From assembly GCA_026874595.1 (NCBI GenBank), contig CM049307.1, positions 23,537,079-23,601,078 of the forward strand: DNA of 64,000 bases. The letters run 5' to 3'. A program made the position numbers and the translations under genes. Numbering within the stretch: the stretch's first letter is position 1; every line of letters begins with the position of its first letter. This DNA comes from Sipunculus nudus (Eukaryota > Annelida > Sipuncula > Golfingiida > Sipunculidae). This document shows, one piece after another, positions 12,129-55,127 of this stretch. The notes under the pieces are model-generated. The model did no database searches. It was not told the DNA's origin and worked only from the letters and a program-made list of their open reading frames with translations.

Positions 12129-12146
12129 CTTTTTCTTGAAGGGCAT
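12129..12146 (-). CDS. Candidate alternative first coding exon of ankyrin (MPFKKK)
   Basis: On the minus strand, ATGCCCTTCAAGAAAAAG is followed at once by GTATGTAG, a very good splice donor, in phase 0. The six residues MPFKKK would join directly to SDGNASF in the exon at 6924-7025. Vertebrate ankyrin-G and ankyrin-B first exons also end in a basic Lys-rich stretch before the same SD motif, which makes the candidate plausible. The same frame stays open upstream to an earlier ATG at 12365, so a longer exon of about 79 residues is also possible. The coding part is only 18 bp and the flank is only mildly CpG-enriched, so a chance match is a real alternative. No transcript evidence is available. 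Confidence 0.35.
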
Positions 12147-13952
12147 CCTGACTGTATGGGTAGTGATGTAAACACCAAGAGTAGAGTAATCCAAATAATC
12201 CCGGAGAGTCCAGAATGTGTGGGAAAAAGCCTCCCTGAGTGCTGAGATAATAATTATCTCATCAAGTCGAAATATGCCAGGTTGACCACATACAGAAGCT
12301 CGGTGACCAAGGGGCCCTCCCCAAAATGGCTGGCCTTGCTGTTTGTGTAATAGGTTGGTTCTCACTGACTGTTCCCTGAGACTGGCATCAACATGGCCCC
12401 GCTGCCAAGGCTGGTGTTAAAATAGCTTTGGCTGCAGCAGTAGCCACCAGGTGTGCTGCCCCAGCCAGCAAGCGCATGGCAGTAAGGGTAGAGTTACAAA
12501 ACATGGCCATGCTTGCTCTCCATATAGGGAACACCACAGTCAGGCAGAAAGACCAGTTCCTGGGCTTCTGGTGGGTGGTGCCATACAGCGGCTGCAATAT
12601 CAGTTCATAAACTTCACATGCTGGACACTGGTCACAGTGTGTAATAATATACAAACAGACCCTGGGCTGCCAGATGGAGCTTTCAATGTAGCATCTGTAA
12701 CACTAAAGCTAATGAAAAGGTCAGCTGGCTGTGCTGGAAAGCTGCTGGGGACAGGGGAGGAATTACTCCAGGGGCTTGTTGAGTGGACAAGATCGATACA
12801 GTGGGTCCTTGCAGCTTGTGATATGAAGGGGTATCATGAAAGGCATACTGAATACATGACATGAAGAGGCGGACTGCATCAAAGCCTTGTGGGTAACATG
12901 AAAGCCTCCTGACGCACCGGGAATGCTGGTTTTATATACAAAGTCATTGCTGCAAAGACAGACTCTGGCAGCGCTGGAATCATAAGACAGAGTATACCAC
13001 CAGGTCAACCACATAAAGAAAAATAATTGAAACCTAATAAGTGACCTGGAAAAAAATATGGACCCTGGGAAATCTGCAGAGTGATAGACAACATCTTTAT
13101 TCATATTGTGACCTATAAACAGAATAAATGATGAGGTGGGGATATGATGATAGAAACCAGGAAAGTTTTATAAAAACAAAGAGTGAAAATATAAAGTGTG
13201 CTGTGAATCTGAGGTTGTCATTTTTGAAGTGCCCAACTCTGCACAAACATCACACATCTGCACTGAGAACTCAGGACCTTGACCTGTAAATTCAGTGTCC
13301 CATCCACACACTTATAAAGTCTAATTACCTATGAAATGTCAAAGTTAATACACAACATATATTTAAGAATATCAAGACTGATATATATTTCATCAGACAT
13401 ACAAGAATCATTCTCCCTAGTTGTACACTAGTGTCTTCTAATATCGTTGATTCATTTGGTTCTAACAATGCCAGGAGCTTGAAATCATATTTTTAAATGG
13501 CACTGGATTGTTATATGGTTCATTCTTCTAATAGCAACTTGACTTAAAAAGATGTGACCAGATTCAGATGAAATTTTGTGATAGGTGACTAAGATATAAA
13601 GCTATAAAGTAATAGGTGAGAGAAACACTATTGGAATAATCTAAAAATTAAATTTTTATAGTAATCTGGGTCACCATGTTATGCATTGATTCAAATGATT
13701 CGTAACCATTGTTATACAGAGCAACTTGCTTATCCCAGCCAAGGGTGACTCTTGTCATTTACTGATATAATTTATAAGGGGCCACCACTGATCTACTGAG
13801 CAGAGCTAACCTGTGATACAACCATGAATATGGTGATTCATAACACATTTTCTGGTGAAGCATTAATAAAGTTTCTGGCTTGGGTAGCACACAATAAAAG
13901 AGTATTCACACTGAGATGTGTGGTCTCAGACAACTTTCAAGTTCATGGCAAT

Positions 13953-14150
13953 GTGTTAATGGGAAAGGTATTAATTGTAACCACCCAACCCACAAGGTAT
14001 ATAAAGAGTTAACATCAATTAAGACCGTGAGACCATGCCATCATGTTACTCTAGAAATTAGCTTATGGGAAAGGCATTAATTAAAATCACTCAAAGCAAG
14101 ACCTGGATAAGACATAACACCAGTTAACTCAGCAAGGCCATGCCATCAAT
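13953..14150. repeat. Diverged tandem duplication, about 110-bp unit
   Basis: Two adjacent segments share a common order of motifs. TAATGGGAAAGGTATTAATT ... GTTAACATC ... GACCATGCCATCA is followed by TTATGGGAAAGGCATTAATT ... GTTAACTCA ... GGCCATGCCATCA. It appears to be an old local duplication with no coding potential. Confidence 0.6.
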
Positions 14151-16587
14151 AAACTAGATTTGGACTTTGTTCAACTGGTCCACTGAGAGATCAATAATAC
14201 AGTCTCTTATCTTTCCTGATATGGGATTCAAACAGGGCTCAAGTCATAAATGTTCCTAGAAATCCATCCCAAACTATCACCAGAAGTCAGCTATTCTTTA
14301 TCATGGGACTTGCTCTGGTTTCTGGCCAGGAACTGCCACAGAATGTATTTTGACAGGAGGAGCTTTACAGAACCTTGAACACTGAATGACTAAGATTTTT
14401 TAGACCCTTGCACATTGAATGACTCCTGGTCTACTCTTGTGTTACAGTTTCTGTTCAGATGATGATTAACAATTAAGGTTTATACACTGTAGACTGACTT
14501 AAGAATTAAACACCAATGAAAAGTTTATGATAAAAGACAGGGCCCCATATAATACACTAATATTGCAGTGCATGAACAATATATATCTGCTTATGTATTA
14601 TCAAACAATGACACAATACTACAATCACAAGCAAATAGTATAAAACCCCAGGAAATGATCAACAGAAAATCTGTGACACACCTGAAGTTAGAAACAAGTG
14701 GGGTTGACTCAGCATTAATTTCTTTGAATTTGGCACATACCTATCACTTATGACATCACTTGTGACATCATACATGTAGGAGGTATTCAGACTGAGCCAC
14801 ACACACAAGTATTTAATGAGTAAACAAGTTATCAACTACCTGTGTATGGATGCCTAATAATAATCAATACATTTGTCGATATATTCAAAGGTCATAAGCC
14901 AAACACCTGCTGGAGTGTCCTTCCCAGTGAAAGTGATTTTACTGAACCTCTCTGTGCAAGGCTGTATCTGCACCAGCAAATAATCCGGATTACAAATCCG
15001 TTTAATCTGTCTGCTCTAGACCATTAATCAAGATCAGTTCAGTCTACTGTAGTCCCCTTGGTTCAAAATCAACTAGTTCCTACCACATACAGGCACATTT
15101 GTTTCTAATCTGTGCGAGGCCAGTTTTGCTACCAACTGACCCAATCCTGAAAAAAATATCACTTTTTGCAGCATAGTTAATCAGACTAACAAGTGTAGAC
15201 AGCAAAGCTCATGTTAAAATATTAAATAAAACAATTAAGGCTTTTGTAAAGCCAACTATTACTGTATAGTGTGGATACAAAGCTCATCACTTCTGAATTT
15301 AAGTTAATTTGTTTAGTATCACACCCAACTTAGATGCGAACCAAATGTGGATACAGTCATAGTAACCTGGCTGTAATGATACATGCACTAATATATTGCA
15401 TTATAAAGTAAATCTTTGAATCTGCATCCTCAGATGCCCTAGTAACGTGATTTGTTATGTTGATATTACTTGATCATTTGATGGAAAGTGAGACACTGAA
15501 AGTCTCTTACAACCATACGATGATGTCTATGGTGAAACAGCATTGGTAAGAAATGACCTGACCAACTGATTGGATAATCAACTGGAAATGAATTTCATTT
15601 ATGGTTTAGATAAACATTTTATGACAATGTATGTTTTGTATTCTATATTGTAATTAATCATATGTTTCATGTCGTGTTTAGTATTGTAAGAAAAGTGTTG
15701 TGATACATATTGTATGGTATTGTGACATATTTTATCATTGCAGACCCAGAAAGAATAGCCCTATACATGTACTGTTATTGCACCTGATTTCCCGGTGTGT
15801 AGTCTAGCACACTTTTGGTATGTGTATACACTGCTGTGTCACGTTTTTTGTTGTGAACTCTGACATTTATCCCCGTTATTTGCTGGTGACTCGGCATTCA
15901 GGGGACACTTAATGTTTCACTGGTGGGAAAGCTTGCTTACATAAAATGTTATAGTCATACACCTGTGAAAAGATGACCCCAGTGCGTGATGTTCAATATG
16001 ATTAAATAATCACCAGATGCAACATTACATGTAAATCTGTAAAATGGGTTTATTATATCTTTCATATGGCATTTGAAATTCATATAGAAGACTTTAGCAT
16101 CATTCCAATAAAATAGGGTACCAAGTCAAGTATATATAACTAGTTACTATTTCACATTTTTAGTATCACAATTTCATTATAATTATAATAACTGTATAAT
16201 AAATTGATTTCTAAATGCTGCCTTTATAGATTTTTAAATTCACACAAATGATGAAATATGTGCACACCTTACTCAATTCTCTGCTGCTTTATTTCAGTCA
16301 GTATGATATACAGTTGCTTGTATACATTAACAGACCTTATCTTTGACAGTAATTTTCATATTCATAATGGATTATCAGACCACACATCCACACCTCTATC
16401 ATATTCCTGGCAACATTCAAACAAAGTTCTAATAATTTTACATAATAGCTATATTAGTTTCAATTATAACAGTCAGGTAGTTTACCTACAAAAAAGATTA
16501 AACAAGGAGACTACCCATGCATTTCTGACATTTATGTTGTCTAGACTACCAAACCAGTAAAACCTAAATTATGGGTTCAGCGAGACT

Positions 16588-16601
16588 GTTGCCATGGTAA
16601 C
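16588..16601. promoter_or_regulatory. X-box (RFX-type) palindrome
   Basis: GTTGCCATGGTAAC is an exact match to the RFX-factor X-box consensus GTNRCCNNRGYAAC. Weaker relatives occur in the same intron at 27057-27070, 36870-36883 and 50923-50936. RFX sites often mark ciliary or sensory-neuron genes. Regulation of ankyrin by this site is only a guess. Confidence 0.3.
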
Positions 16602-17056
16602 CCATCAATGGGACAGAGCCTGGATGACTGGTCTTGAAAGGATGCGGTTTGGGTATATTACAGTGTGCGAGGGATGAGGGGGTTGTTTTGCATGCATTAG
16701 GCAGGGCTGTTTGTTCCAGTGAACTGGATCAATTTTACCACCTGTCCTTGGTGTTCTTTTTTTTAACTTCTGATGTCACCTAACTAGCTATTAATTTGAA
16801 AAATGCCAATAAAATTAAACAAGACACTATTGTTAAAATATTTAAAAACTTATGACATATTTTCAAATTATGTTAAAGAGCTCACAATAAAACATGCATA
16901 TCTAAGGAAATCATGGTAAATGTGGAAGTACATCCATCTTAATCTAACTAAATATTTTTAAAAAGGAATGTCACTGAAATTTTGAATTTGATTTTTTTTA
17001 TATTTTATGAGATCAGTTGAGCTATTCAACAAGTGGTGAATAATACAACAAATACA

Positions 17057-17092
17057 AATAATAATAATAATATGTTAATAATTATAATAACA
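17057..17092. repeat. Imperfect (AAT)n microsatellite
   Basis: Repeated ATA/AAT trinucleotides with one interruption. It is a simple AT-rich repeat. Confidence 0.8.
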
Positions 17093-17982
17093 AGGGTTCC
17101 GCTGAAGGATCACAGACAGGAGGCTGACACACCCTGGTGGGAAACCAAGGAACTAACTGTGAATATATGGAAAGTGGAATTCTACCTGTGAACATATAGG
17201 AACAGTGATACACAGTGAGTTCTACAAATAACATCAGATGCTTCGATTCGCTTTAATCTCTCAAAAACAAATCATATATTTGAAAGCAATTACAGACATA
17301 ATCTAGTAAATGTTTCGAAGTAGTATAACATTATCATTATGAGTGTGGTTGTAAGTGATTCAGAATTATTCTGAATATGAAAGGTGGGAGTGCAACATCT
17401 TTTTCAAATGCCATATAAGTATGAGTGATAAACTGATATATAAATCTGAAGTCTGCAGTTTGTGTTCACCAACTCTGAACTTTAAGTCTTTGGACCTCCA
17501 GCAGATGGCACTGCAGTCATCTGAGCTGAAAGAGTGGGGCTTGATTTTACAAAATATAACTTGACTCTCCACATAAAATAATAAATAATTAAAAATCATA
17601 AAAAAAGATGAAAGTGTAATTGTTCTTATCTCTGTAGTTGAAACACAGAAAATTGTACATAATAAAATTCACACAATAGAACTGTAAGGAACAAGTTTAT
17701 GTTGTCCTAGCCATAAGTAGGAAGGCCTGCCACAATTATGCTGCTATCTAGTGGGAGAAACAAGAACTATTCTGCCTTCTAATAATGACAAGATCTTACA
17801 ACACAGAACAGGTGAGCTGGAGTTGGTGGCCACATTAAACATACTTTAATCCCAATTTGGAAAAATTTTAATCCAAAAATAAAATATAATGAAAGTTCTT
17901 CACTGATACCTTGCTGAGAGAGGGATATATTACATCACAGTATGTACCAAAAACACTCAAGTTACCAATAATATATATGTCA

Positions 17983-18233
17983 AGGCCCAGATCCCAATCT
18001 GGACCAATCGGCGATTGGTCCAGACCAGACCAAATCTCGATTGGAATTCAGTCCAGCCAAAACCCCAATTTTGTGAGTTATGAGCTAGATCAGGGATATG
18101 GGTAACCATAACCTTAAACTGATTAAACAGGAAATCATTCTTTTTGTAAATAACTGAAGATCGAGATTTAGGCTGGACTTAATCCCAATCAGGATCTGGT
18201 CTGGATCACTGAGTCCAGATCAGGATATGGGCT
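17983..18233. mobile_element. MITE-like element with long inverted ends
   Basis: The left end starts AGGCCCAGATCCCAATCTGG. The right end, read in reverse complement, starts AGCCCATATCCTGATCTGG. The inverted similarity continues through CCAGACCAGA and TCCAGCC to AAATCTCGAT, roughly 75 bases on each side. A perfect internal hairpin, CTGGACCAATC-ggc-GATTGGTCCAG, sits inside the left arm. The flanks carry TATATAT on both sides, which may be a target duplication or just local AT richness. At 251 bp with no open frame it fits a small non-autonomous DNA transposon. The superfamily is not assignable. Confidence 0.6.
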
Positions 18234-19275
18234 ATATATACATGTGCATAACCTTGACCTGCATTGATGAGAGGCTACTTGTGGCCGTCCAAGGGCCTGG
18301 GCTACTGTCATTAATAAATCAGGAACCAACCATCTACATTCATTTCACGGTAATTAAGAAGATTGATCCATTGGCCAGAAAGCTATAGGATACACAATGC
18401 ACCTGTGCTCCACCTAGTAGGCTGGGATTTTTTTTAGTTTTTTGCACCATCACAATGTAATTTTGATTACACTCTGAGAAGTCTTAACTGCTGAATTACA
18501 TGCTGCCACATTCTGATATGTAACATTAATATTGGAATCTTTCACTGATCATGTTACTCAAACAAACTACATTATTCTTAACTTAACATCAATGCCTTGC
18601 AGGTATAAAGTGAATTAACATAACATTAAAACACCTTTTGAATATCAAACATAGGTTTTCAAATATTTATAGCCCTTTGTCTAAATGCCGATATTTTTCT
18701 TGTCCGTCTTAGATAACTTTAAATGATAAATTATGTTACACACATTTAACTGTAAGATACCTGAGGATATCAGCTTTTTCTTAAAGTAATTTTCTTTGGG
18801 ACATGCTGTTATCCTCTTTGTAAAAACAAGAAAATAATCTGATTCAAATGCTAAGAAAAAAATCCTCATTATTTTCAGAAAAATATCCTGTCATACTCAA
18901 CCCACTAGAATTTATTTATTTTAAAGTTTAAAACAATCCAAGCTACCTTGAAAACTCTTTACAGCATGCCCATGATGCCACTAAAGCAAACTTGTAATGG
19001 GCACCTTGAATTTCCTAACTTGGCTAGTTTTGCCGAGTTAACAAATGATTTTTATTATTGCATATTTAGTTTCAGTTCAAATGATTCTCGTTAACCTTCA
19101 GCAACTCCTGTCTTTGGTAAATGTTTAAAACTTATGAAGATATAACAAAAGCTTCGCTTAATTTTACCTAGAAATGTAAATGTAAATAGGAACGGTATGT
19201 GTCTAAATTCTAAATGGGGGAGGGTGAACATGAACTGTTAAAATTTATCATGTCATTCAGCTGCAAACACAGGTT

Positions 19276-19293
19276 GGGGGGGGGGGGGGGGGG
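19276..19293 (+). repeat. Poly(G) run, 18 G
   Basis: An uninterrupted run of 18 G residues. Similar runs occur at 44243, 53680 and 57284. They are able to form G-quadruplexes and are prone to sequencing-length error. Confidence 0.9.
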
Positions 19294-20059
19294 TTGAAGG
19301 TAATCTTCTAAAGACAGACATAGTCATTAATGATATAATTATAAATATGACCCAGAGATTTCACAACATTTTATGATTCTGGAGCAGCCATGAACCAAGA
19401 TGGTAGCAATCTTAAAAGGACCCAATCACCTATCTGACCTTTATAAACTAAAGGTGATTCCTTGGAGCTTTTGTAAAAATAGGCCAGAGCACTTGGATGT
19501 CACGGCACAGAGGCTGCTTGTTTTGTTTATATAAACATGTTTATAATATGTGGGGGCCCACCAAAATAATTAAACAAACTCAATGAGGGCATCTGGCAGC
19601 AACAAGTGACCCTTCTACCTCCACATATATGCAACTTACATCCTTAGGTTACATGTTTTTCTTATTTGTCAACATTGCTGTGTTTAAAAACATGTTGTTG
19701 ATAAACAAGTTCATACACCTTTCATGGAGGCCTCATAAGAACATTTCACAACCAAAATTACCCTTAGATCATTTATATATACACAGAGGAAGCCAGAAAT
19801 CACACAAATTCTTTTCAAAGGGTATGTGAATGGGCACCTTTAAGAGTCAAAATGCTTATAAATATTACATGCTGCAGCTGCATTTACAGGAAAATGACAA
19901 TCTTATGTCTGCTTGTTAAAGGTCAAAGGATGGCAGTTCAAGACATATTCACAGATAACAAAAGAGTTTTGCATAGTTTTATCAAATTGAGTATAAAATG
20001 ACAATCAGTTGCACAGATAGCTTAACCCAAAGGCACAGCATGACAATTAATTTAACGGA

Positions 20060-20240
20060 GTTTCTCCTAGAGCTTCATCCTGTACTGACCTTTCTACCCA
20101 CTCTCTTCCTGTCAGAGACCCGATCCCATTTCCTCCCGCCCCAACATCCAGGGTTCTCCAATTCTCATGCCCCCTGATGCATCATGGGAAGGAAGAACAG
20201 GCTTACGAAGATGAGCCTAACTAATCGATATAGGATGCAT
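20060..20240. other. Small CpG-richer patch without an identified exon
   Basis: The sequence is richer in C and CpG than its surroundings (ACCCGATCCC, CTCCCGCCCC, TTACGAAG). I searched both strands for an ATG-to-donor unit compatible with the second ankyrin exon. The best donor, AAAG|GTCAGT on the minus strand, has no in-frame ATG before a stop. It could be an unmethylated regulatory element or a non-coding first exon. Confidence 0.2.
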
Positions 20241-23565: not shown

Positions 23566-23646
23566 CTTAATACAGAATAAAAATCCTTTCCATGGTATCC
23601 TGACAGAGTTATTCCGTTTGATATGAGAATTTTTGGACGGCTCCAT
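23566..23646 (-). CDS. Candidate alternative first coding exon of ankyrin (27 residues)
   Basis: On the minus strand an 81-bp open segment runs from ATGGAGCCGTCC to ATTAAG and meets the donor GTAACG in phase 0. The peptide begins MEPSKNSHIKRNNS and ends GFLFCIK. An in-frame TGA lies upstream and no other ATG comes between, so this would be the start. The segment sits at the downstream end of a CpG-rich patch extending to about 24.37 kb, as expected for a promoter plus first exon. Spliced to 6924-7025 it would give a basic Ser/Lys/Arg-rich N-terminus ahead of SDGNASF. Codon use is unremarkable and the donor is only fair. A competing open frame in another phase overlaps it. Chance is a serious alternative. 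Confidence 0.3.
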
Positions 23647-25901: not shown

Positions 25902-25914
25902 AAGACATTAGTCC
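25902..25914. repeat. Target-site duplication, left copy
   Basis: AAGACATTAGTCC, identical to 26292-26304, flanks the SINE. Confidence 0.85.
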
Positions 25915-27070: not shown

Positions 27071-27154
27071 CAGACATCCAGGTGGAATTAAAGGTCACCT
27101 TGTACAGGAAATATCATGATAATCAAGACCAGATTCGACTGGACTGCCACTATA

Positions 27155-29236
27155 CCGTAAATCCTGTTTTTATCGCCGCACGTCTATTTATAGCCGCATC
27201 ATGAGTTTGCAAGGTCTCTCAAAGGAGCTCCCCCTAAGGTCCGAATATCCAAAACCCCCCTTAAAGGCCGCACCCTGACTTTGCCTCTGGACTGAGGGTA
27301 GCGATAATCAGCTGCAAGTAGCAAAATAAATCACGACATAGCTTGCTTTAATGAAGATTGGAATAAAAAAGTATATATTACAGAGGTTAAATATGTTGCC
27401 GGGTTACGTATTTTAAATAAATTTAACGTTAGAGATAGGGACAAAATATCTGTATGTCACAAACGACTTTTGCATGGACGAGAAGGCATTTATCAGAAAA
27501 GGAAAGATTCCCCGAATGATCATTTCATTTGTACTGTGGTTACGAAAAATGTTTCTTGTATGTATCAAAAACGCTTCTTTGCATGTACGTGCAATTGTCA
27601 AAGACCATTATATGAACACTGAAATGAGGTTTATACAATTATCTATTGATGCAAAAAACCACAATACTAACCATGATTAGGCACAGTCACGCAGGAGCGC
27701 TCATGGGGCGACATGATGGTTAAGACTGCTGAAACTGTCATATTATTAACCTGCACTAACTTAATCAAGACACGTGGTATGAATATAAAAATTAAAATGT
27801 AGAACCTTGAAATGTACATCTTTCTTGCGGTATAGAACTTGTTATAAAAAATCTTGGTAATTATCACCAAATAATACGTTTAAAACCCCCTGCTGTAACA
27901 CACAGCTGCCCACTTTGCACGGAAATAAACGCTTACATTAAACTCATTTGCGGCATTATTTAGCAACGTTTATTTGTTAAGAATGTTAAATGAATAAACA
28001 GCTGACATCTTAAAGAGTCGAATAATAGTTGACTACTGTTTTTCATATCAAATTTGAGTGCCGCCATGTGCATAAACCCCCCAGTCTTCTGCTAGGAATA
28101 TATTTCGAACGGCTGTACGTGTTGGGTGGTAAACAGAACAGCCAACTATTCCGTCCCAGCGTGCCATGCGCAAACACCGACTTAACAAGATGACAGCCAC
28201 AGGGAAACTATCTTCTTGAAAAAAAAACTTTTTTTTTACCTTAACTGGCCACTTCAATTTCACTTTAAAATCATGTTTTCACGCGTCATGTTTCCTGTGC
28301 ATTCTTATCTCGATAAGGTACCAGTTATTTTGATATTTAGTTCACCGGACTGGCGATATTTTATAACGCACCAGCAAGTTGGGACATGGAGCGATGTATC
28401 AACGTACAATGTGACAATGACAATACCAAGGTAACTGATATGAAAATGATTCGAATCTTCCGAGTAATTCAAGAAAATTGACTTTTCATCATAGATTAAG
28501 ATTTCAAAATTTTACTTTAAGAATAAAAACATACATTGACTTCAAAAGTACAAGTAGAATATATTTTTATCCAAAATATTATGGAAAATCAGTTGCAAAA
28601 ACAGAATACGACACAGCATATGAGGCCTATAAAATCTGTTTATTCAGCAAATTCCATCGGCCGTGGTGACATGTTCTACCATTTATATCCACAAGCGGGT
28701 TTCCCCTCTAACAATATTAAAATACAGACCAAATATCCGTGAAAATATGTCGTATAAAAAAACAATGATTAACCAGAAGTAAACAACATTGAATCTGAGG
28801 CAAACCGGCTCCGTCAAAGTTATGAACGGTTGAACAGTAATACCGAAATTGTCCAACAGACGTCACCACAAGTCTTCACCATGAATAATCTCATTCATTT
28901 TAATCTCGATATCAATGTTTTTATTGTTCAATGTTTCGTTTAAAGTAATAATTTGTATTCAAATAATTATTATATTTCATATGAACTATATTATATTTTA
29001 TATGATAGACTATACAAATAAAACAAAAATTCTTTAACTACAAAGAGTATTCCCTCTAAAGTGTTTGATCTCCTATTATCGCCCAAAGTCAAGCCTTGTC
29101 CAGGAGAGTGTCCTTCTCACAGTTCATTTCGGTTAAACCATCTATTTAAGGCCGCATCCCAAGTTCAGAAAAAATGTCGAGATTTTCGATTTTGAGTTTG
29201 TTATTATGGCCGCGGCAATAAAAACAGGATTTACGG
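27155..29236. mobile_element. 2.08-kb DNA transposon-like element with terminal inverted repeats
   Basis: The left end begins CCGTAAATCCTGTTTTTAT and the right end is its reverse complement. The two match at 24 of 25 terminal bases. TA lies directly outside both ends (27153-27154 and 29237-29238), consistent with a TA target duplication as in Tc1/mariner/pogo-type elements. Subterminal motifs such as TATTTA(T/A)(A/G)GCCGCAT occur near both ends. The interior is richer in CpG than the host intron, suggesting a young insertion. No transposase is readable: the longest frames are about 70 codons with no DDE signature. It therefore appears non-autonomous or eroded inside. The superfamily is inferred from the TA only. 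Confidence 0.8.
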
Positions 29237-30109
29237 TAGTTCACTGTTTGGCACAAGCTTCAAATATATAAAACATTTTACATCTTTCCATACATTATCA
29301 GTTCTCATTACTGTATTTCTGTTTTAATACTGTGGTTTGAAGAAGGAACTAAAAATCATGAAAAAGTGATTGATTTTTTTGTTTCACTGAGATTATATAC
29401 TGAACCAATACCCTTGAACATGATGCCACTGGCATCAGATACCAAAGTATCAAGTAAATACACAACAAACAAACATTTATTTACTTGATTATTGCCTACC
29501 CTGCTTTCAAGCAGCATGAATTATAATGCACCATGAGAACAAGTGATAAGGAACTTTGAAGAAACCAAGAAACAAGTCCATATCTGATATATCACTGTCA
29601 ATATGACAAACTGTCAATGTCACTTAGTCAGCATATGTCATTCTTTTTTAAATTAACTAGATTATATAACCTTTGATATATATATATACATGTTGAAAGA
29701 GCTGATAACATAACAGACCCTGTTCCTATCTTTATAAATGTTAGCTGCTGCCTTTTTAATGATTAACCTGACAAAGCTGCATTATGATACTCAGCTCTGC
29801 AGTGCCTGTGGTATCGACCCGCGCCTTCTCATTCCATCATCTTTTCTATCACAGCAGCTGTTAAATTTCTTATTAATATCTACACAGTAAATACACTGAC
29901 TAACGTCCAACAGGAAGACTGAAAACACTGACAACCTACTGCGAACTAAAATCTGTAGTCTATCAACCTATATATATGGTTTATACATATATTTTATATG
30001 ATATTACATATGGAAAATTCTGTCTATAGGCCAGAACCTAATCTTAAACTTACTGAGATGTTAATTAATTAAAGCATATGCTGCTGGCAACCTGTCGCAT
30101 CTTTAAATG

Positions 30110-30560
30110 TTATGATCAAGCCCCACCCAGTACAAGCCGGAATTGACCCAAAATTCATCGGAATCCAAAAGAACTGCACGATCGGTTCATAATCCTATAG
30201 ACACCACCTGTCACCACTGTACAAAAAGCCAATACAAAGCTGGCTCTTTGGGTGTTTTTTATAAACATACAGACAACAACATATACAAACACACACACGG
30301 AGGACCAGCAGTTTATTATGTGTACAACCTGTTTAGACTTTTGGGCACCCGTCTTGGCGGCTGGCGTTCCAGGGCTAGAGTTCTCCATCGTGTTAGGGAG
30401 GATTCATCCTCCTCCTCATCTAGTTGATCATCAACATAATCGGTCAGACTATCAGCGCTCTTGAGATCGTAGCTGGTAGGCCCTTTGAGGCCTGTAGGTG
30501 TCCTATCACTGCATAGGCCTACATTTTCCCAGCTGAACTGCTGCCAGGTTCGGTGGACTG
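30110..30560. promoter_or_regulatory. CpG-rich patch around a candidate first exon
   Basis: About 14 CpG dinucleotides occur in 450 bp (CACGATCGG, CCCGTCTTGGCGGCTGGCG, CAGCGCTC and others), far above adjoining intron sequence. It could be an alternative ankyrin promoter read to the left. The patch also holds longer overlapping open frames on both strands, with an acidic segment on the minus strand, which I read as side effects of composition. Confidence 0.35.
30329..30388 (-). CDS. Candidate alternative first coding exon of ankyrin (20 residues)
   Basis: On the minus strand ATGGAGAACTCTAGC opens a 60-bp segment that ends TCTAAACAG|GTTGTA in phase 0. The peptide MENSSPGTPAAKTGAQKSKQ would run straight into SDGNASF from 6924-7025. 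It looks like known ankyrin N-termini: short, Ser/Pro/Ala-rich, turning basic just before the SD motif. An in-frame TGA lies six codons upstream, so the start is fixed. It sits in a sharp CpG-rich patch. The donor is moderate, GTTGTA after CAG. An alternative is that another overlapping minus-strand frame through 30316-30582 is the real one, but that frame leaves the donor in phase 2, which does not fit the ankyrin exon. Confidence 0.45.
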
Positions 30561-33500
30561 TCTCACCAGTATAAACCAGCAATTATCAGACTCTCTCTGG
30601 AGAGGCCACTGAACATGCTTCTCTACCGATTGCCACTCTAATAATATATGAACCATTCACGTAAGCACCTGCGACACAACAACACGTGATAGGGGGCTTA
30701 GGGAGCTTAACATTGGGTGCTTGAATCTGATGTTTCCTGCTGCTGCAGAAGCAAGAGCAAGAAAAAAACATTAATTAAATATCAGATAAAATAAATGTAC
30801 TACAGGGAGCAATATGATTGTTGTTCCCAGAGGTGCCCAGGCCTGGAGTAGATAATGAATGCTAGCAACCATACCGGCTCCGCATTGATTTTCTGCCGGA
30901 GCCAGGCTGCAGCTCACGGGAGATGCATAAGTTATTCATTTTGAACCTGGTTCCCTTATGCCTCCTGCCCTATGCTCCACCATTATGACTCATATTTAGT
31001 ATTAAAATGCGATCACCTGAAAACCACTGCCATCCAGTACAACCCAAAGGCCATGTCTCTAAATATTTTTTCAACTGATCACAATATTATGGTCTCAGTT
31101 TAATGCCATTAACATCTTTTATGATGATGTTCAGGTGGCATCATCATCAGACCACCCAATACATATAATTTATAAAATGAGTTCCATGAACAGGTGATGA
31201 TCAAGAGTGGCAAAATGGTTTAATTTTATCCTGCTGATGGCAACCAAATCATCTACATGATTAATCAATGAACTGATATTGTTGATCTTCCTCAATTTTA
31301 CTTGTTTTGTTTTTTTACATAATGCTCAAAGCTCAGTTAATCAGCTTCAAGTTTTATATCAGCCATTTAGTGTCAACAGTTAACCTGAATAACTTGTTGT
31401 GGTAATTTTCTCCCACAGACTGAATTCTTTAACCAGGAAAATTAAATCCCCATACAGATCTGAATATTTTAGGCAATGAAACCATATTTTTGTTAACAAA
31501 AATGTTCAGTTGCCAATTAGCCACCTGAAGCTCAGTCCTGTATATGTACCTATACTTAAGCCTGGAGCTTCTGTCATCTTTCATCCTTATATTGCACAAC
31601 CTGTTGGCCAGTAACACTAGAAATTTAAGATTATTAATGATATTACATCATTACACAATGATATTCCATATATTTACTATAAATGAATATGGACTTTTTA
31701 TCATAAGGAATGATGTATATTTTTTAGTTCCAACCTGACCGTCAAATTGTAGCTAAACATGTCTCATTCAGTATCCTGTGAAAATTATTTTATTTAATAT
31801 CTGAAAGTATATTAGACTCTTAGGGGAAACAAATCTATATATATCAAACTTCCATGTACACATTATCCTGTTTTAAGCAGAAATATGTACATATATGTTG
31901 TGTTCTTTTCACAGATAAGTACAACACTGCACTGGTATGCTGTGCCAGTTTAAATTTCATGATCACTTTGACATTACATTTGAAAGCTTGAATCTAAGTT
32001 TTAATTTTGTACTGATCAACTTTTGAAATAAATAAATTATCAGACAATTTTGTGGGGGAAAGGGTGGAATATGAAAAATTTATTCAATGATTCCACAAAT
32101 GCATGCTGTATCTGAATTCAATTTCTAATTTCAAAGCTAATTCCACAAAAAAATAATGAATTTTGAGTTAATAATACAAGCAACTGATCACTAAAATTCT
32201 GAACATAAAGCTATAGAGACCTTTCCTCTCTACCCTTAATAGCTAACCCCTTACAGGCCTAACTAACCTCTAAGTGCAGGGATAGCTACAATAGCCCAAC
32301 CTGAGTGTGCCTGAGGGCTTTTTAACCCATAAACCCTGTGTTTCTAACTAGCCAACAAAATATCCTGTGGTTGTGTGCAGGTACAGCCAGCACAGGTATC
32401 CTGGTGAGTGACCTAAACATGAGGGATGCCTCAATGCTCTCCTGATATTTAGGACACTCCATGTCACTTGTAAACAACTGTCCTACACACACCCTGAGTA
32501 TCGTCATAACCTTTGATGCAGCTTATCAATAACACACAGGGAATAGCTGTAGTAGTATAAGAAGACACTGCTGCTTTAATTAACAAAAATACTGATAATT
32601 CTTGTAGGATGTCATATTTACAAAGGTACATAAAATATACAGATACTATAATATATACAGTGGGAAAGAGGGGGACAATGATGCTGGTTATGACTGATGC
32701 TGGATACAACTTACTAGATTTTTTACATGACCTACACAGTTGCTCTGACTAATATTTTTTAGCTCCAGCCTGCCCTGTCTTATTCTATCCTTACCTGCCA
32801 TGACAGAGTTTATCTCAGTTTTCAAAGTTCTCCCCTATTCTATAATTTCTTGTCTTCTCGCTACCTTTTTGAGTATGATTTAAAATTTAAAGCAAAGTTT
32901 TCATTTTTACAAAAAACAACATATCTCACACCTGGCAATATCTGCCTATATATAATGCATGACTTCCATCTTATAGCATTTTGGTTTCCAAAACTGACAA
33001 GACTTGTCTCAGCACTTGTTTCCACACTGACTAGCACAGGCAATGACAGGCTTGCCTGTCTTAAACAGCCTGAAATTCAAATTAGAATAATTCCACACTT
33101 AAGGATTAAATATCAGAGTAAAGATATTTTTTGTTTGGAATATAGCACTGAACATGTTTACATTATAATTTTGTAAACATACACTGACCAAGAACACATT
33201 CAATATGGTCACTGTGTGAGCAGTGTTTTGCCTGTATATTAACACAGGTATGATAACACATCATACTTCTCATAATTTTTCTTTTAATATATGCTGCATG
33301 ACTACAACTGGCATTACCAGTCTTTTTATTTACTTCATACAGCTATCATACCAGGATCTATTAACTCCTCCAAAGAGGTTATTTTTTCACGGTGTTTCTG
33401 TTGATCTGTCAGAGAATAAATAAACTGCTACCCAAACTGCCACAAAACTGTTAGGAAGGTGGGACATGGCCCAGGGCAGAGCCCCACAACAAATAAGTTT

Positions 33501-35726: not shown

Positions 35727-35855
35727 CTTAGGAGGTGGTGGTGGTTCGTGTATAGGTTCTCGTATTTCTATATGGTGAGGCCGTAAGGGTCGTTCCAGGT
35801 GACGCTGTCCCTCCAACACCTGGTGGGCAGTGGTGGGAGCGAAGATGGTGGTCAT
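35727..35855 (-). CDS. Candidate alternative first coding exon of ankyrin (43 residues)
   Basis: On the minus strand a 129-bp open segment starts ATGACCACCATCTTCGC and ends CCTCCTAAG|GTTTGT in phase 0. The 43 residues begin MTTIFAPTTAHQVLEGQRHL and end HEPPPPPK. They join in frame to SDGNASF at 6924-7025, like the main first exon, which also ends in Lys. An in-frame TGA lies nine codons upstream of the ATG, and no other start intervenes. The exon lies in the most CpG-rich patch of the intron apart from transposons, as expected for a promoter-proximal exon. The donor is non-consensus at +3 and +4. No domain is recognised; variable ankyrin N-termini usually have none. Of the intronic candidates this is the best supported. 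Confidence 0.55.
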
Positions 35856-36170
35856 CCCGACGAAGCGACAGAATGCTGGCGTTCACCACTTAAGTCCTGT
35901 TTATGGCAGTAGCAGTCCTGTTCCCCAGCAGATCAATAAGGATGGCTGGCCCTGTCATGTTTGCTCACAAAATGGAGGCCCTTCATTCTGCCACATTGAT
36001 CTAGGGCATTTCTTGTGATCGGCCACCTTAATACCACCGGTGACACGTCCACAGTGAAATGCGTCTGTATGGAGACTGGTGGTGTGCAGCAGTACTGTCA
36101 GCCCGGCTGTCCCCAGTACTGACTTGTCACTCATGCACTCCAATCAGCATGCAACGGTGCTGTGTAGCAA
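35856..36170 (-). promoter_or_regulatory. CpG-rich patch upstream of the 35.7-kb exon
   Basis: CpG stays high beyond the ATG (CCCGACGAAGCGACA at the boundary, then GATCGGCC, ACCGGTGACACGTCC, GCGTCTG). The patch would be the 5' untranslated region and promoter of the alternative transcript. A second open frame here (start at 36143) reaches a weak donor AAG|GTGGCC in phase 0 at about 36029. I consider that less likely than the exon at 35727-35855. Confidence 0.35.
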
Positions 36171-44242: not shown

Positions 44243-44262
44243 GGGGGGGGGGGGGGGGGGGG
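44243..44262 (+). repeat. Poly(G) run, 20 G
   Basis: Twenty consecutive G residues, a potential G-quadruplex. The true length may differ because of sequencing error. Confidence 0.9.
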
Positions 44263-47200: not shown

Positions 47201-47283
47201 TATCCGCCAAAATCAGAGTGGAATGGGTGAAGTGAGGCATGGATTGAGTGGCAAGGGAAAATAGAGCAAGGTGTGTTGCATAT

Positions 47284-48452
47284 TAGCATGGATGTCTGCA
47301 GCCAAAATGTATATGTAGGTTGCACCACCTACCACAAATGCAGAAAGCTGTCACATAAATGTAGGTGGCGCCACCTGCCAAAAAAAATCGAGAAAGCAAT
47401 CCAAGATGTATAAACATGCAAAATCTTTAGGCAGATAAGTCAAACTACTACAGAGATATGAGTGATTTTAGCTCACGGCAGACAAACAGACAGAAGCTGT
47501 GCAAAAATGGTTGCAGGTGGCCCCTCCAGTTTTGTGCATGATAAAGAGCTATGTGATATCTATACACATGCAAAATTTTGGCCTAATCGGTCAAACAGTT
47601 CCCGAGATATGAGCTTGGATGTCTGCAGTGTAAACTAGAATGTAGGTGGCACCACCTATCATAAAATCCAGAAAGCTGTCCAGAATGTATAAACCAGCAA
47701 GATTTTAGGTAGTTATGTCAAACCACTACAGACATATGAGTCATTTTATCCCAAGGCAGACAAACAGATGGACGCTGTGCAAAAATGGTTGCAAGAGGCG
47801 CCACCAGTTTTGCATATGATGAAGAGCTATGTGAGATCTATACACATGCAAAATTCTGGCCCAATCGGTCAAACGATTTCCAATATATTCATGAGCTTGG
47901 ATGTCTGCAGCATAAACGTGAATATAGGTGGCGCCACCTGTCACAAAATCGAAAAAGCTATCCAGGATGTATAAACCTGCAAAATTTTAGGTGGATATGT
48001 CAAACCACTGCCGAGATATAAGTGATTTTATCCCACGGCAGACAAACAAACGGACGCTGTGCAAAAGGGATTGCAGGTGGCGCCACCATTTTAGTGTATT
48101 TTATAAAGCTATCCAAGGGCTACATTTGTATAAATTTTTTAGCCTGATCAGTCAAACGGTTCCCAAGATATGAGCTTGGATGTCTGCAGCGTAAACATGA
48201 ATGTAGGTGGCGCCACCTGTCACTAAAATCGAAAAAGCTATCCAGGATGTATAGGCATGCTGAATTTCAGGTGAATAAGTCCAACCAATGCAGAGATATG
48301 ACTGATTTTATCCCAAGGCAGATGAACAGATGGACACAGTTCAAAAATGGTTGCAGGTGGCGCCACCATTTTAGTGTATGTTATAAAGCTATCCAAGGGC
48401 TACATTTGTGTAAAATTTTTAGCCTGATCGGTCAAACGGTTCCCGAGATATG
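47284..48452. repeat. Four tandem units of about 280 bp
   Basis: The landmark GAGCTTGGATGTCTGCAG begins at 47611, 47893 and 48172. A variant lies at 47284 and a diverged continuation near 48452, giving periods of 282, 279 and about 280 bp. The first interval is 327 bp because of a small internal duplication. Each unit has two arms of about 140 bp, each carrying the palindrome GGTGGCGCCACC or a close variant. Confidence 0.85.
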
Positions 48453-48645
48453 TGGGTTTATGTGTGGAAACAGACGCACAAATGGACGCAGAGTGCAGAG
48501 GAAAGGCTAGAGGTCAAAACAAAATCGGGGCACAGCAGTTCACATATGACCCGAACATAATCCCGGGTTTTGTAAAATTCCGCCCAGCGGTTACAGAGGA
48601 GTTCTCCGGACACCTACGCTGCGGCGGCGTCCAGCTGAAAACATA

Positions 48646-48675
48646 GTATCCGCAAAACGCTGTTTTGGCGGATAC
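48646..48675. repeat. Terminal hairpin
   Basis: GTATCCGCAAAAC, a 3-base loop GCT, then GTTTTGGCGGATAC pair over 13 bases with one bulged G. It lies exactly at the right end of the tandem-cored element and includes its inverted terminal repeat. Confidence 0.8.
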
Positions 48676-51600
48676 AATAATCAACAGAAGACACTCAAAC
48701 AAATCACAACCCCACCAATCATGAAGAAGATCCTTTGAAGATTACAGACTACCTACAAAAGTTTCAGCAAATCAACTTGTGTCCTTAACAGAGAGGTGCC
48801 CATGAAAAAGGTTTTTTAATTTCCTGTAAGGAAAATCTGATTTACAAAGCTATTGATCTACAAACCTACTATTCCCTCTGTAATGACAAAACTAAATTGT
48901 CCTCACATTTATTCCATTAACAGAAGGATGTTACTGTAACATTATGCCACGAGTTCATGCTTTTACCCTCTGCTTGAAATCTTAAATAGTTTATACCTTC
49001 ACTATCAAAACTGATAAATTATAATTAGCTTACATACTATTCTTTACATACAAGTTTATGCTTGCATGCTGATGACATCAAGGTATATTAGGTAAAATTA
49101 TTAAAATCTTCAATTAAAATGGCTTCTTAACCTAAGAACAAAGAAAATGACCAATTTTACATCTGTCATATTAAGGAACACATGTATGTGTAAATACTAC
49201 CCTCATCCTCTCCTGAGGGCAGTATAGCTCTTACATTTCAAAATCCTTATACAGGATGCTGATCAAAGGGAACATGGTGCTTGTGTGAAAGAAAGGGATC
49301 ATATTGCATTTTCCTTGGTAACTTGCACTCAACAATCCTGAGTCCTCCCCATCATTCATTTTCCCTTTGAAAATATAATTTTGTCATTTTTACATTGTTA
49401 TTGCACTGTTATTGCCACTTTGAGCTCTTTGTGTAAAATATGAAAATTCTTTTCTCCTGTATTCTGAATCCAGCCCAACTAAAACGGTAAAGGGAAAGGT
49501 GACAACTGATTATCAATCGATAATATCTAGGCCATAAACATGGGAAAATGATACGAGTAGTATCGTTTTATAATTTATTGATATGGGATTTTTCAATATA
49601 TCGATATTCTATGTCAAATTTATCTAATTAAATGCACCTGGCAGTGACTAATTACATAATATACTGCATAGTCTTCTTGAAGTAAATAGGCCTATATATA
49701 TCAAATATTCCTAACTTTCTTGTAGATTATGTGATATATTTACTGCACCCTATAACTTTTTCTGACTAATTATGTACACCTTTCATGCCTTATTTGGTCC
49801 TTTAAATATAAAATGTCAGGTGTTGCAGCTATTGCTTTTAATTGAAGATCAAATGTCACCAATGTATCAATCCAAGCTTTGGCCGTATATTACAGGACCA
49901 CCATGGAAACATGGGTTACCTGAGCGAAGATGGTAACACTTTTAAATGTGTTTTTGAGAATAAATTAGGAGTTTTATCAGTTATTACATCTCCAGCACAG
50001 CCTACCCCTGATCCATGGACAGATCTGTATCTACATGCTGGGCCCTTTCCTGACATGTCAGACGTCAATGAAAGAGAAATGAAAGAGAATATGTTACAAA
50101 GCTATACAGCAGTGTCCTGGATCCTCCAGCTCTATGGACACATTTACACAGATATCCTGCTGATTTATGTTATATGTATCACTAGATAATGACTGGTTTG
50201 GCCTGGGTATTCTAGATCAGCTAACCTATCTTTGACAAAACTTCCATAATGTAATTTTTACAGTGCATACTAAAATTTAATAACTCATTTAATCATAAAA
50301 CCCACTCCATTTTCCTTTCTCAGATCACCCTTTAAAAGTAAAATTCAGGACATGGTTATGTTAGCAATTTCCTTTAAAAGCGAACTGTTCTCCAAATGTC
50401 AACTTTTTTTATTATTAAAAACCATAAGATTCCATGACATTAATAGGATTATTTCAAATTTCTGGTACATCCTACCCTGAATATGGTATTTTAAATCCCA
50501 AAACTTTCAAGCTTTAACACAACCAATTGAACCAACAGAAACACTGATCCAGACATTGTCAATACCAATGAATAAAAAATGAGGCATTTATACACACAGT
50601 ATATTTGGCCTAATGCCCAAATTGGGCAGGATGGACACATGATATCAGGATAACATATGACCATCTTCAATTAACCACCATGTCCTCTCAAAACCCTGAG
50701 TGATGTGCATATGAATCTATTTTTTTCACCTAAAATCCAGTAAAATAAAAACATGTGGTACGCAATAGATGAGCGGGTGTTTATTCCTGGAGGTGATAGA
50801 CACCCACGATTTGCAGGCATGGATGGCCCAGTTAAAGGGAACTGTTTGTTCTCTACTTCACTTCATTCAGGGTCAATACACAACTCAGGGATGAAAGCAT
50901 ACATTCAAATTACCAGTCCCTGTTACCATGGAAATACCCATAAAACCAACCTCCCCAGTGGAATTGTATTCACATTCTGTGATCAACGGAGCCAACACAG
51001 GATCTGGGTTTAAAACAAGAGAAATGTCAACAAATAAATCCAGCAGTACATTCTAATAATTTATATGTTAATGCACATATCCTAAGAACACAGTTTTATA
51101 ATAACCTGATGATGATTCATTAAGAGCTCTTGACATGACAAAGGAAATATATGTAGAATTTGAATAATATAACACATTTAAAATTCATTTTTTGTGATAT
51201 TTTCTCTGGAAATATTACAAAAATTTACTTTATATGATTCACAAGAAGTGTGACAAACTTAAAGATTAAATATATCTGGTCTTATTCAACCTCTGATGTG
51301 TTCATATTTTCTTTTAATTCATACAACTTTGTCATTGTTTTCCATGTTTTAAGACATGATCAGCGATTCCTTATGAACAAGAGGGTGATTTACCTCCCCT
51401 GTCTGTGGGATGCCTTGCCCCACCACAATGCCCCAGCTCACAGTCACTGGGTAGGCAGGCTGCAGTCCATTTAGTCACTTAGCATCTATTATTCACAGAC
51501 TTCTAATTTGACTCCCATAACACCCTCCTTGTGTTGTCAAGATTACTGCAGGGGTTCCTTCTAATTACTACCATGAACAATCATCTTAATAAGCCCTGCT

Positions 51601-53679
51601 CAGACTAGTAATGTTAACAATTTATCACACAAATATCTACTCATGTTTAAAAATTAACAATCTCAATGTTTCTAATAATTGCTCCATATTTAATTTTAAA
51701 GCAAAATAAAGAGGTCCATGCCCTCTACTAGAAAGTCCTGCTGCTTCTACATTATGATGGAATCATACGTTCTTCAATTTTTTGCCTTCAATGACCTATG
51801 CTGATAAACTAATACAATTACTGCATTTTCCAGATAATTAACTCTACTTGGTCCTAAACTGCACTAGTAATGCACCACCAGTGTATTCAAAGTCAAACCC
51901 AAAATGTCAAGTTGAAAAATAACTCCATAAAATATTAAATCATCCAGCAAATGTACAAAACCTTCTGTTATTTGTTATATGTAAATCAGAAATGAAAATA
52001 TGAGGTTCTGACAAGAAAAGAGACAATATTATAAAGAATCTAGTGATACTGGATCTTCAGTTTGTGTACAGCAAAAAAGTTCCAAGCTTCAAGTTGAGTT
52101 ATGCCTGCCAGTCAAAACAACTAATAAAACTGGTAATGTGCTGTGTTTTATGTATTTGAGCAATTTGCTGATTGTTTATTTAAGCAGTAGAGACAGTGGT
52201 TGGTAAACTCAGTACCAGTTCTCAATACCATGATTTAAAGAGCTGAGAATATGCAGATAATACTATGAGGTCATCAGACGGCATCACAGACCTGGAACCC
52301 GCAGGCGATGCCCTGGAGTTTACTAGTCCACTGCCACAAAATCAATAGTCCGTATTTTTTCAGTATGACTGAACAAGAATCAAATTTCGCCCAAGGATGC
52401 CTGGGCATGGAGCCAATAATAATGAATTAACAGCCACCAGTTCTATTACCAGGGGGGCAGATGGCTGCTCAGTTGGCTTCTATGCCATAAAGCTTCATTA
52501 GATATGATCAATTTTTATGATGGGAGGTTAAATTAATAACTCAGATAAACATATATGAAACTATTATTTTACCAGAAAAATATAAATGATATAAAATGTT
52601 TAAATGTACCCAGAAATCTCCTTAACAATGTGTACAGCTTAACCAGTTCCTAATTCTGCAGACAATCTGGATTTATTTATAGACATGTCTCAGTCTTCCA
52701 GAATGTCTGTAGACTCGCACAGTACAATCTCAAATAGGTCCCGAGCTAGGGTTGTTTACAAATTAATGTTAACAGTGTATATAACAGTGCTACAGCAATT
52801 GCCTTTAGCCATTAATTTCTCCTGGGACAGTGGAGGAGACATCCAATTTATCCCTTGTATAATTTAGCTTAATACAATGGTTGCCATTATGTCTATGATG
52901 TCATAATGGTTACTACGGCAGATGTGACTGGCAGCATGCCATCAGCCCCCAAGATATAAACTTGGGCCGGCCTCCCTGATTCACAGGGAAGATGGAGTTT
53001 TTTTATTAGTAACACATCAACTGGACAGTACATGGAGACTTAGAATGACCAGCAGGATAGACAGTTGTGAGAAAGCCCCTTGTGGTTTGATTAATAATTC
53101 AGAATCAAAACAGGCAAGCCAAAATTGGAGACTGCCTCTGTGCCTCAGACAGTCCACAATCAATACTGGCGAAAACTGCGGTATTAAGGCAGCCTTGTGC
53201 TGGCAGTCTCATACAGATGGTCAAGTGCTGCAGACATCTGTCAGCCAACAATACTCAATTAAGTGACATAATCCAGGGTAAGACTGCTAAATCATAAGGT
53301 TTCCTATGTTAACAACTAAAGCCTTCACTCTTCATTAGTGTGCTCATAATGCATCCATGTTATCTGCATACATTCCACTGACTTTGTTGTTATCATTCCT
53401 GAACAGATCTTGTTTAATCATCCCATTAAATGCTGAGTGGATCTTCAAACAGGGATGCCCTCATAAGCACACCAATGATGCCTTTTTTAAAAGTGACTGT
53501 CAAGATTAACATTAGAATTTATAAATCTCTGCATGTACCAATAAAGCAAAACCATAATGTTGACATGTCAAACATGAGGAAAATATGAAAGGTCTAGCCA
53601 TATAAGTAAAAAGATTCAGGTTGAGATATAAATTTAATTTATATCATAAGTTAATGTTAAACAGACTTTAAATAAAGCT

Positions 53680-53698
53680 GGGGGGGGGGGGGGGGGGG
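53680..53698 (+). repeat. Poly(G) run, 19 G
   Basis: Nineteen consecutive G residues, about 1.3 kb on the intron side of the main first exon. Confidence 0.9.
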
Positions 53699-54992
53699 AG
53701 TCTTTAATACTGGTACATTATTTTCTTGGGTTGGGCTGTTGAGTAGTTCAAAGTAACTTGTTGTAACACAGATTACAGTATACTAAATGACTTTTAAGGG
53801 GTCAATGATTTGGGTTATAACATCATAGCTCCAGCAGCTGAATGTGGGTACATAACAATTACTGACCTTCGCAATGCAAGTTAACTTTCATTCAAGTGAA
53901 ACTGGGCTTGAAATTTATAAATACATCAGGCAAATGTTCAGTTAATTATTAACCCTGCTTGGTACACCGTTGTATATTTATACTCAAAATCATGTGCTGA
54001 TTGTTAGTTTTTTAATTGTCTGCTTTTGTGATCTACATAAATTTTCCAACCGTGCTTTTGTTATTACCTAAAGTTTGCAAGCATGGAACAGCACCTGTCT
54101 GTATACAAGCATTGTGTAACACCACAAGGCTATGTATCCAAATATCCTCAACTCCTATTGATAGGACCTGCTCATGTGTATTTATATCACCGCAAACATT
54201 TGAACACACTTTACTATCAGACACACCTTGATAAACATAGTAATTAGTATTCCCTCAGGAACAGTAACGGAGCTGAGTGGAGCATTTGTCCCACGTGATA
54301 CAGAATATTTACGCGTAGGTGTGCAAGGGCTTGAAGTCATAACAGGCTGATTTTTAACAGGATGGTTGTCAGTGAGTAAACGTTGGTTTCCTCACAAATA
54401 AAAAATGCTTGTGACATGCATCTGCGCACTCCCTTGATGAACAGCATATGTAAGACAAACCAAATCAAAACACTAAGCATACAACATCATTTGTGAGGCA
54501 CATCTGTGGGTTGGCCTTGTTTTATGAGTAGGCAAAAGTTTGGAGCACATGCACTAAATCACGGCTATCAATAGCCAGTATATCTGCAAGCTTGACTCAG
54601 GTAAATGCAGGCCAGCATGACACACAAACAACACCGGCATAGCTGACACATTTTGACCTAGCCTTATATTAACCTGAGAGGTCATAAAAGGCCTCTGATC
54701 TCTCTAGGGTGGCGACCTTTTTATCAGTCGAGTATTTTCCTGACATTTCGACACAGTGCTCATCATGTATAGCTATGCATTGTCACTGTCAGAATCCCGC
54801 CATTTTGGCTTCTTAGGTTTAAGAGTTCGAGTACCGATGCTTGCCGATAACAAACCAATAGGCAATAAGGCAATATGATATCGGATGTCTCCCCATATGA
54901 GTTTACTGTATACCTGTCACCAATCATGCACATGCCCTGATTCAAAATGCAATATGATGGTGACAGATCGATAAAAAAAATTATTATCTTAC

Positions 54993-55127
54993 CTTTCCAG
55001 TGCGACCTTGCTTGTCACGGACCTGGGGGGAGGGGGTTTCTTGGAGCACCGGCACGGGACGCTGGACGGTGCCTTGCGGGGGCTTCTCACGGGCTGGGAC
55101 TTCAACCCAGGCTTCTCCTCCACTCAT
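54993..55127 (-). CDS. Ankyrin, main first coding exon
   Basis: On the minus strand ATGAGTGGAGGAGAAGCC opens 135 bp (45 codons) ending ACTGGAAAG|GTAAGATA, a consensus donor in phase 0. The peptide begins MSGGEAWVEVPAREKPPQ, has a Pro/Gln/Val-rich middle and ends RDKQGRTGK. It is a disordered, basic-ended tail of the kind that precedes [15 protein letters not shown] in ankyrins. An in-frame TAG at 55155-55157 lies upstream, and the ATG has A at -3 (AAACAATGA), so the start is fixed. The exon and its upstream flank are GC- and CpG-rich, like a promoter-proximal exon. It joins in frame to the exon at 6924-7025 across a 48-kb intron. That pairing is inferred from phase and strand, because variable first exons carry no family motif. 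Confidence 0.8.

Follow-up and report, generated by a model that had tools for sequence, protein, structure and literature searches.

Mouse Ank3, the ankyrin-G gene, has five first exons (1a to 1e), which were measured by quantitative RT-PCR and have coding lengths of 24 to 114 nt, all multiples of three (PMC4449188). These exons lie upstream of a 102-bp exon 2b and are spread over about 409 kb, an extra exon 2a follows 1a, and the short coding first exons measure 24 and 36 nt (PMC4449188). Exon 1d was detected in heart and skeletal muscle, whereas brain, kidney, cerebellum and lung lacked it (PMC4449188). Because the coding lengths are multiples of three, we infer that the mouse first exons end in phase 0. 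Another published count of ankyrin-G alternative first exons gives three rather than five. For exons 1b and 1e, the N-terminal peptide beside the membrane-binding repeats is reported to tune channel binding (PMC10733341). Among invertebrate ankyrins, no alternative first exons were recognized in the literature at the level of titles and abstract openings, which is not proof of their absence.

A 64,000-nt window of the Sipunculus nudus genome (C2:23537079-23601078; genome of 1.43 Gb, 153 contigs) was analyzed together with 80 kb of downstream and 40 kb of upstream flanking DNA; positions are those of the window, negative ones lying in the downstream flank. The prediction of an ankyrin gene at this locus holds: ANK-repeat exons, a ZU5 domain and a Death domain lie on the minus strand, and the best matches are ankyrin chains. 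Visual inspection of open frames located seventeen repeat exons of 99, 102, 186 or 198 nt, the first eight measuring 102, 99, 99, 99, 186, 99, 99, and 99 nt, and at least one further repeat exon lies outside this set near window -18.8 kb. A ZU5 exon (C2:23483355-23483573, minus strand, E 1.3e-18) follows at window -53.7 kb and a Death domain exon (C2:23468687-23468854, minus strand, E 1.5e-8) at window -68.4 kb. Both agree in strand and order with the ankyrin repeats and presumably belong to the same gene, which holds one ZU5 match, with no second one seen. Since repeat, ZU5 and Death exons share one strand, they outline a canonical ankyrin gene that spans over 120 kb; it is a single-copy ankyrin and, by its exons and domains, of the ANK1/2/3 type. 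A large open frame rich in Pro, Glu and Ala on the ankyrin strand, between the repeats and ZU5 (window -29.6 to -28.7 kb), is a possible linker exon. Elsewhere, 18 of 24 ZU5 matches, among the matches listed, fall on contig C12, where ZU5 genes may have expanded locally.

Exon 2 (6924-7025, minus strand) is 102 nt long, is in phase 0 at both ends and is flanked by TTTCAG and GTAAGT; exon 3 (2843-2941, minus strand) has 99 nt. As predicted, exon 2 accepts phase 0 only, because stops interrupt its other two reading frames. It is thus a 102-bp phase-0 acceptor exon, it has no usable internal start, and it gave one match in a genome-wide search. The nearest PDB chains to exon 2 plus the next exon are ankyrin-2 and ankyrin-1, with exon 2 aligning to the ankyrin-2 chain. 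The lengths of the first eight repeat exons are those of mouse exons 2b to 9 (Table 2, PMC4449188), and in mouse the alternative first exons enter at the slot before the 102-bp exon with which the first ANK repeat begins. The genes part from the ninth repeat exon onward, with 198 nt in mouse and 99 and 99 nt here. They also differ in that the mouse has five RT-PCR-measured first exons over about 409 kb, whereas one, predicted from sequence, is well supported over 48 kb here. The arrangement may echo the alternative first exons of mouse ankyrin-G.

The original prediction proposed up to five alternative first exons in the minus-strand DNA before exon 2, at 54993-55127, 35727-35855, 30329-30388, 23566-23646 and 12129-12146. 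All five segments start with ATG, stay open and measure a multiple of three, with GT coming next. They end in Lys or Gln as described, but these endings are uninformative because AAG/GT and CAG/GT are the donor consensus, which they merely restate in phase 0. Extended by 200 nt on the upstream side and 100 nt on the downstream side, each segment matched only itself in a genome-wide search that ignores simple repeats and very common words. The surroundings of the 12-, 23- and 35-kb sites likewise gave self matches only. No second ankyrin or retrocopy carrying a first-exon/exon-2 junction was found, exon 2 and the five segments having one genome match each.

Donors were scored with a profile that combines a generic prior with 17 donors taken from this gene; on it the training donors score 3.0 to 9.5. 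The comparison set was the 897 phase-0 segments on the minus strand of 7026-55400 that run from ATG to GT and are 15 nt or longer, searched up to about 400 nt. Coding potential was scored with a 2,307-codon table, in which some training codons come from open frames not proven coding. Donor scores were 7.4 at 55 kb, 5.9 at 12 kb, 1.65 at 23 kb, 0.47 at 35 kb and -7.2 at 30 kb; 2 distinct donors scored as well as the 12-kb one (itself included), 37 as well as that at 23 kb, 59 at 35 kb and 373 at 30 kb. Over four control stretches, equals in donor plus length numbered, per 48 kb, 0 for the 55-kb segment, 0-5 for 12 kb, 2-14 for 23 kb, 2.4-8.6 for 35 kb and 123-166 for 30 kb, and on the intron minus strand (each itself counted) 1 for 12 kb, 7 for 23 kb, 3 for 35 kb and 148 for 30 kb. 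The coding score was 34.4 bits at 55 kb, 21.3 at 35 kb, 15.9 at 30 kb and -2.1 at 23 kb. Among open ATG segments of equal length on both strands of the intron, 0 of 169 reached the 55-kb value and 1 of 186 the 35-kb value (the segment itself); the corresponding intron counts were 1 of 702 for 30 kb (again itself) and 153 of 442 for 23 kb. In an unbiased six-frame scan the coding score tracked GC content, many high-scoring segments being shadows of GC-rich patches. Dinucleotide shuffles of the 600-bp surroundings matched donor, length and coding together in 0 of 2000 cases at 55 kb, 8 at 35 kb, 37 at 12 kb, 89 at 23 kb and 98 at 30 kb. Of the five, the 55-kb segment is clearly beyond chance, the 35-kb segment marginally so, and those at 12, 23 and 30 kb are not.

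A uniform scan with thresholds of donor at least 0 and coding at least 8 bits returned, on the minus strand of the window, only the sites at 35 kb, 55 kb (with two donors) and 62.2 kb. The plus strand of the window gave a single site, at 60.2 kb, outside the intron. Elsewhere it gave 10 minus-strand and 1 plus-strand sites in the upstream 40 kb, and 2 plus-strand and 12 minus-strand sites in the downstream 80 kb, the latter 12 falling where ankyrin exons lie. Two of the upstream minus-strand sites have coding above 16, both within a 453-aa frame described below. The five 601-bp upstream stretches share three 11-mers, about the chance number by estimate, and the word GGCCAGCCAT, spotted post hoc at 12 and 35 kb, was not counted as evidence.

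The segment at 54993-55127 (minus strand, MSGGEAWVEVPAREKPPQGTVQRPVPVLQETPSPQVRDKQGRTGK, donor AAG/GTAAGA) is well supported as the first coding exon. Its donor ranks best among the 897 phase-0 candidates, it is the top coding segment of the window, and its coding signal stops exactly at the donor. Of 2000 local shuffles, 5 matched it in donor and length alone, and no stronger donor was found between 55.15 and 67.2 kb, where the best score, reached twice, was 5.9. It is almost certainly real as the main first exon, and it would join the 102-bp exon of the first repeat by phase-0 splicing across an intron of 47,967 bp. A non-coding exon may lie upstream of it. A main promoter near 55 kb would start the minus-strand ankyrin gene, and its presumed region is a CpG-retaining stretch at 55150-57000 (CpG o/e 0.59-1.14 in 300-bp bins). 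When 40 of 8857 first-look candidates were scored, no other copies of 54.5 to about 57.0 kb were found; longer repeat matches set in at about 57.7 kb. Just downstream of the 54993 donor lies the word AAAATGGCGG (54797-54806, minus strand), which we take to be YY1-like. Noticed post hoc, it occurs twice in gene sense within 184 kb and never on the opposite strand, and its position near the donor is suggestive only.

CpG content changes sharply 0.2-0.8 kb downstream of the first coding exon. The gene body has few CpGs, and a fit over 7-104 kb placed the change point at 54,626 (support 54,226-54,826). Across it, CpG o/e goes from 0.23 to 0.70 when the whole span is counted, and from 0.18 to 0.76 once five repeat stretches are excluded (27.0-29.3, 47.3-48.8, 57.0-58.7, 60.3-61.1 and 70-76 kb); the fit covered this one gene of the genome. 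In the oyster, methylation is described as lying mostly inside gene bodies, and the likeness is a CpG-poor gene body beside a CpG-retaining flank (PMC3985014). The step is therefore best read as the start of a germline-transcribed, methylated domain, the difference from the oyster (PMC3985014) being that methylation here is deduced from composition only. On this reading the gene body from just below the 55-kb exon would be CpG-depleted, presumably through germline methylation, and the promoter side would retain its CpGs. Whichever inner exons prove real, the step at 54.6 kb would be a usable mark of the main promoter.

CpG-rich patches had been reported in or beside four of the segments. This holds well at 55 kb and is weak at 23, 30 and 35 kb, CpG o/e near the inner sites outside known repeats being a modest 0.27-0.67 in 300-bp bins. 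The large CpG-rich patch near 30 kb (27153-29240) was rejected as promoter evidence, since a genome match search identified it as a dispersed repeat with at least 66 matches including its own, in which identity reaches 93% among the long ones (scoring covered 40 of 1585 first-look candidates). A smaller patch at 30101-30700 has no other copies and an o/e of 0.54. Another intron patch, at 47.8-48.7 kb, overlaps a tandem array (47353-48452, unit about 280) and was rejected as promoter evidence as far as the array reaches; beyond the array its o/e is 1.0. A further first exon at 62243-62341 (donor 3.1, coding 20.2, both together above those at 35 kb), the one candidate of 55.15-67.2 kb whose coding score exceeds 8, was also rejected. 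It is an unlikely start because it lies inside a dispersed repeat (61900 to about 62364) that is 80-84% identical in at least 39 other long matches (40 of 14335 first-look candidates scored), and it shows that such donor and coding scores can arise without an ankyrin exon.

The strongest inner candidate is the segment at 35727-35855 (minus strand, MTTIFAPTTAHQVLEGQRHLERPLRPHHIEIREPIHEPPPPPK), a possible alternative first exon with a weak donor, AAG/GTTTGT (0.47). It is the sole site in the intron, on either strand, with donor at least 0 and coding at least 8 bits, and in the combined ranking of distinct starts on both strands of 7026-55400 it comes next after 55 kb. CpG o/e near 35.8 kb is about 0.45-0.53, and TG/CA o/e reaches 1.58 in 35801-36100, an excess of the kind left by decayed methylated CpGs. 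Its coding-like segment continues beyond its donor. We regard a real first exon at 35 kb as a tentative proposal, with odds somewhat against it.

The segment at 12129-12146 (minus strand, 18 nt, MPFKKK, donor AAG/GTATGT) is a possible short alternative first exon, its donor being the second best of the candidates in 7026-55400. The mild CpG rise claimed for it is present at the 1-kb scale, where 12001-13000 holds 12 CpG (o/e 0.21, GC 0.48) and the neighboring kilobases 5 and 2, but it is absent around the ATG, where 301 bp hold 3 CpG, a count equalled by 32% of intron positions. The rise is one of GC at the 1-kb scale, not of CpG at the ATG. A real first exon at 12 kb is unlikely.

The two remaining segments are probably chance open frames. 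That at 23566-23646 (minus strand) has no coding signal and is very unlikely to be a first exon. The segment at 30329-30388 (minus strand) was rejected as drawn: its donor, CAG/GTTGTA, is essentially none, and a longer frame in another phase scores higher, making a first exon there more improbable still. This longer frame (30319-30582, minus strand) encodes an acidic stretch of 88 aa, is coding-like (23.7) and is without a Pfam match.

The proposal that all or most of the five segments are real alternative first exons with their own promoters, as in mouse Ank3, draws on the five mouse first exons whose lengths are multiples of three (PMC4449188), on the self-only matches of the five sites, and on the placement of three of them in GC-rich stretches (601-bp windows: 35 kb in the top 1% of the intron, 30 kb in the top 4%, 12 kb in the top 5%; the 23-kb site is in the top 8%). 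The 35- and 30-kb segments also have the top codon score for their length (best of 186 and of 702). However, codon scores climb with local GC, the CpG patches are partly repeats, the 12-kb site is at chance level, and the 30-kb segment lacks a usable donor as the 23-kb segment lacks a coding signal, and we consider this proposal highly improbable. Of the five, then, 54993-55127 is well supported, 35727 and 12129 are possible, and 23566 and 30329 fail.

Whether the 55-kb exon stands alone, with all four inner segments due to chance, or is joined by a start at 35.7 kb, at 12.1 kb or at both, is about even, each having a little under an even chance. For the exon standing alone, every inner site is equalled or bettered in donor plus length on the intron plus strand and in most other control stretches, the 35-kb coding-like segment overruns its donor, and the repeat-derived 62.2-kb site beats it on donor and codons combined. 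In addition, the 10 minus-strand sites of the upstream 40 kb pass the same thresholds, and raised CpG at the inner sites is modest outside known repeats. Against this, the 35-kb site is the only one of its kind on both strands of the intron, and, given the mouse case, at least some alternative first exons are to be expected a priori. Two or three promoters are favored by the rank of the 35-kb site right behind 55 kb and by the second-best donor at 12 kb, short first exons of 24 and 36 nt being described in mouse Ank3. They sit less well with the weak 35-kb donor and the lack of CpG retention at the 12-kb ATG, and the matching shuffles (8 of 2000 and 37 of 2000) are single-window counts, uncorrected for the roughly 80 windows of this size that the intron holds. 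Both possibilities fit our preferred explanation, which we hold to be probable: a main start at 55 kb, possible inner starts at 35.7 and, less likely, 12.1 kb, and chance segments at 23.6 and 30.3 kb.

Real alternative first exons may instead lie elsewhere, as two-exon starts like mouse 1a plus 2a or as non-coding first exons. Mouse exon 2a is a precedent, and the first-exon scans here covered one-exon starts; however, a scan of the window for internal phase-0 exons recovered the true exon 2 as its one minus-strand hit and had no plus-strand hit. Because exon 3 escaped it, that scan is not fully sensitive. We consider this possibility doubtful.

In the preferred explanation of a main 55-kb start with possible inner ones, the slot before exon 2 would be open to any phase-0 first exon, and tissue-specific promoters may use the 35.7-kb segment or, less likely, the 12.1-kb segment. 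If used, the inner exons would place a different N-terminal peptide beside the membrane-binding repeats and could tune channel binding, compare PMC10733341; tissue-biased use would be expected as in mouse Ank3. The likeness to ANK3, where exons 1b and 1e give the N-termini NT3 and NT2, is that the first exon sets a short peptide by the membrane-binding repeats (PMC10733341). The difference is that cell-type and channel data exist there, whereas here the DNA gives the anatomy, the exon skeleton, the CpG step and the relative scores, and promoter use, splicing, methylation and function are inferred from these. A single-copy invertebrate ankyrin in which two or three phase-0 first exons (55.1, 35.8 and perhaps 12.1 kb) are each linked to a promoter is put forward tentatively, as somewhat less than an even prospect. 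If it is true, N-terminal switching would predate the vertebrate ankyrin duplications, promoter-driven N-terminal diversity would be older than ANK1/2/3, and a methylated gene body would harbor active inner promoters. If the 55-kb exon alone is real, the gene would be ordinary apart from the length of its first intron.

Within the window, no nested RNA gene matched Rfam at gathering score, and Pfam gave no match at E 0.1 for four open frames, of which three underlie the 30-, 23- and 12-kb sites. Upstream, a 453-aa single open frame (67219-68577, minus strand) has a Sushi match and an Fz match below the curated cut-off; by eye it starts like a signal sequence and carries a membrane segment at its C-terminus, and it is probably another gene, the upstream neighbor. 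Further along, a LINE-like element occupies 70.7-75.6 kb (minus strand), with a reverse transcriptase match in one frame, and an open frame at 86243-86332 (minus strand) begins MLKCWRERPTERPAFWEIV; it resembles the end of a tyrosine kinase domain. In the downstream flank, from window -34.0 to -32.9 kb on the minus strand, open frames of a repeated NQTFLQKSA-like peptide are perhaps a minisatellite. A genome search for the mollusc haemocyanin family gave no match, but as it gave none in any control genome either, it is uninformative. Elsewhere in the assembly, ten long COX1 matches were found, nine near-equal on eight contigs (C60, C61, C62, C66, C72, C74, C75 and C89) and one on C123. Three of them (on C60, C61 and C123) were examined and are bacterial in type, the C60 copy lying beside coxII- and coxIII-like frames and the C123 match resembling a cbb3 oxidase. 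The best 80 GTDB relatives listed for C60 share 52-58% identity, and the contigs with bacterial-type COX1 are symbiont or contaminant genomes in the assembly.
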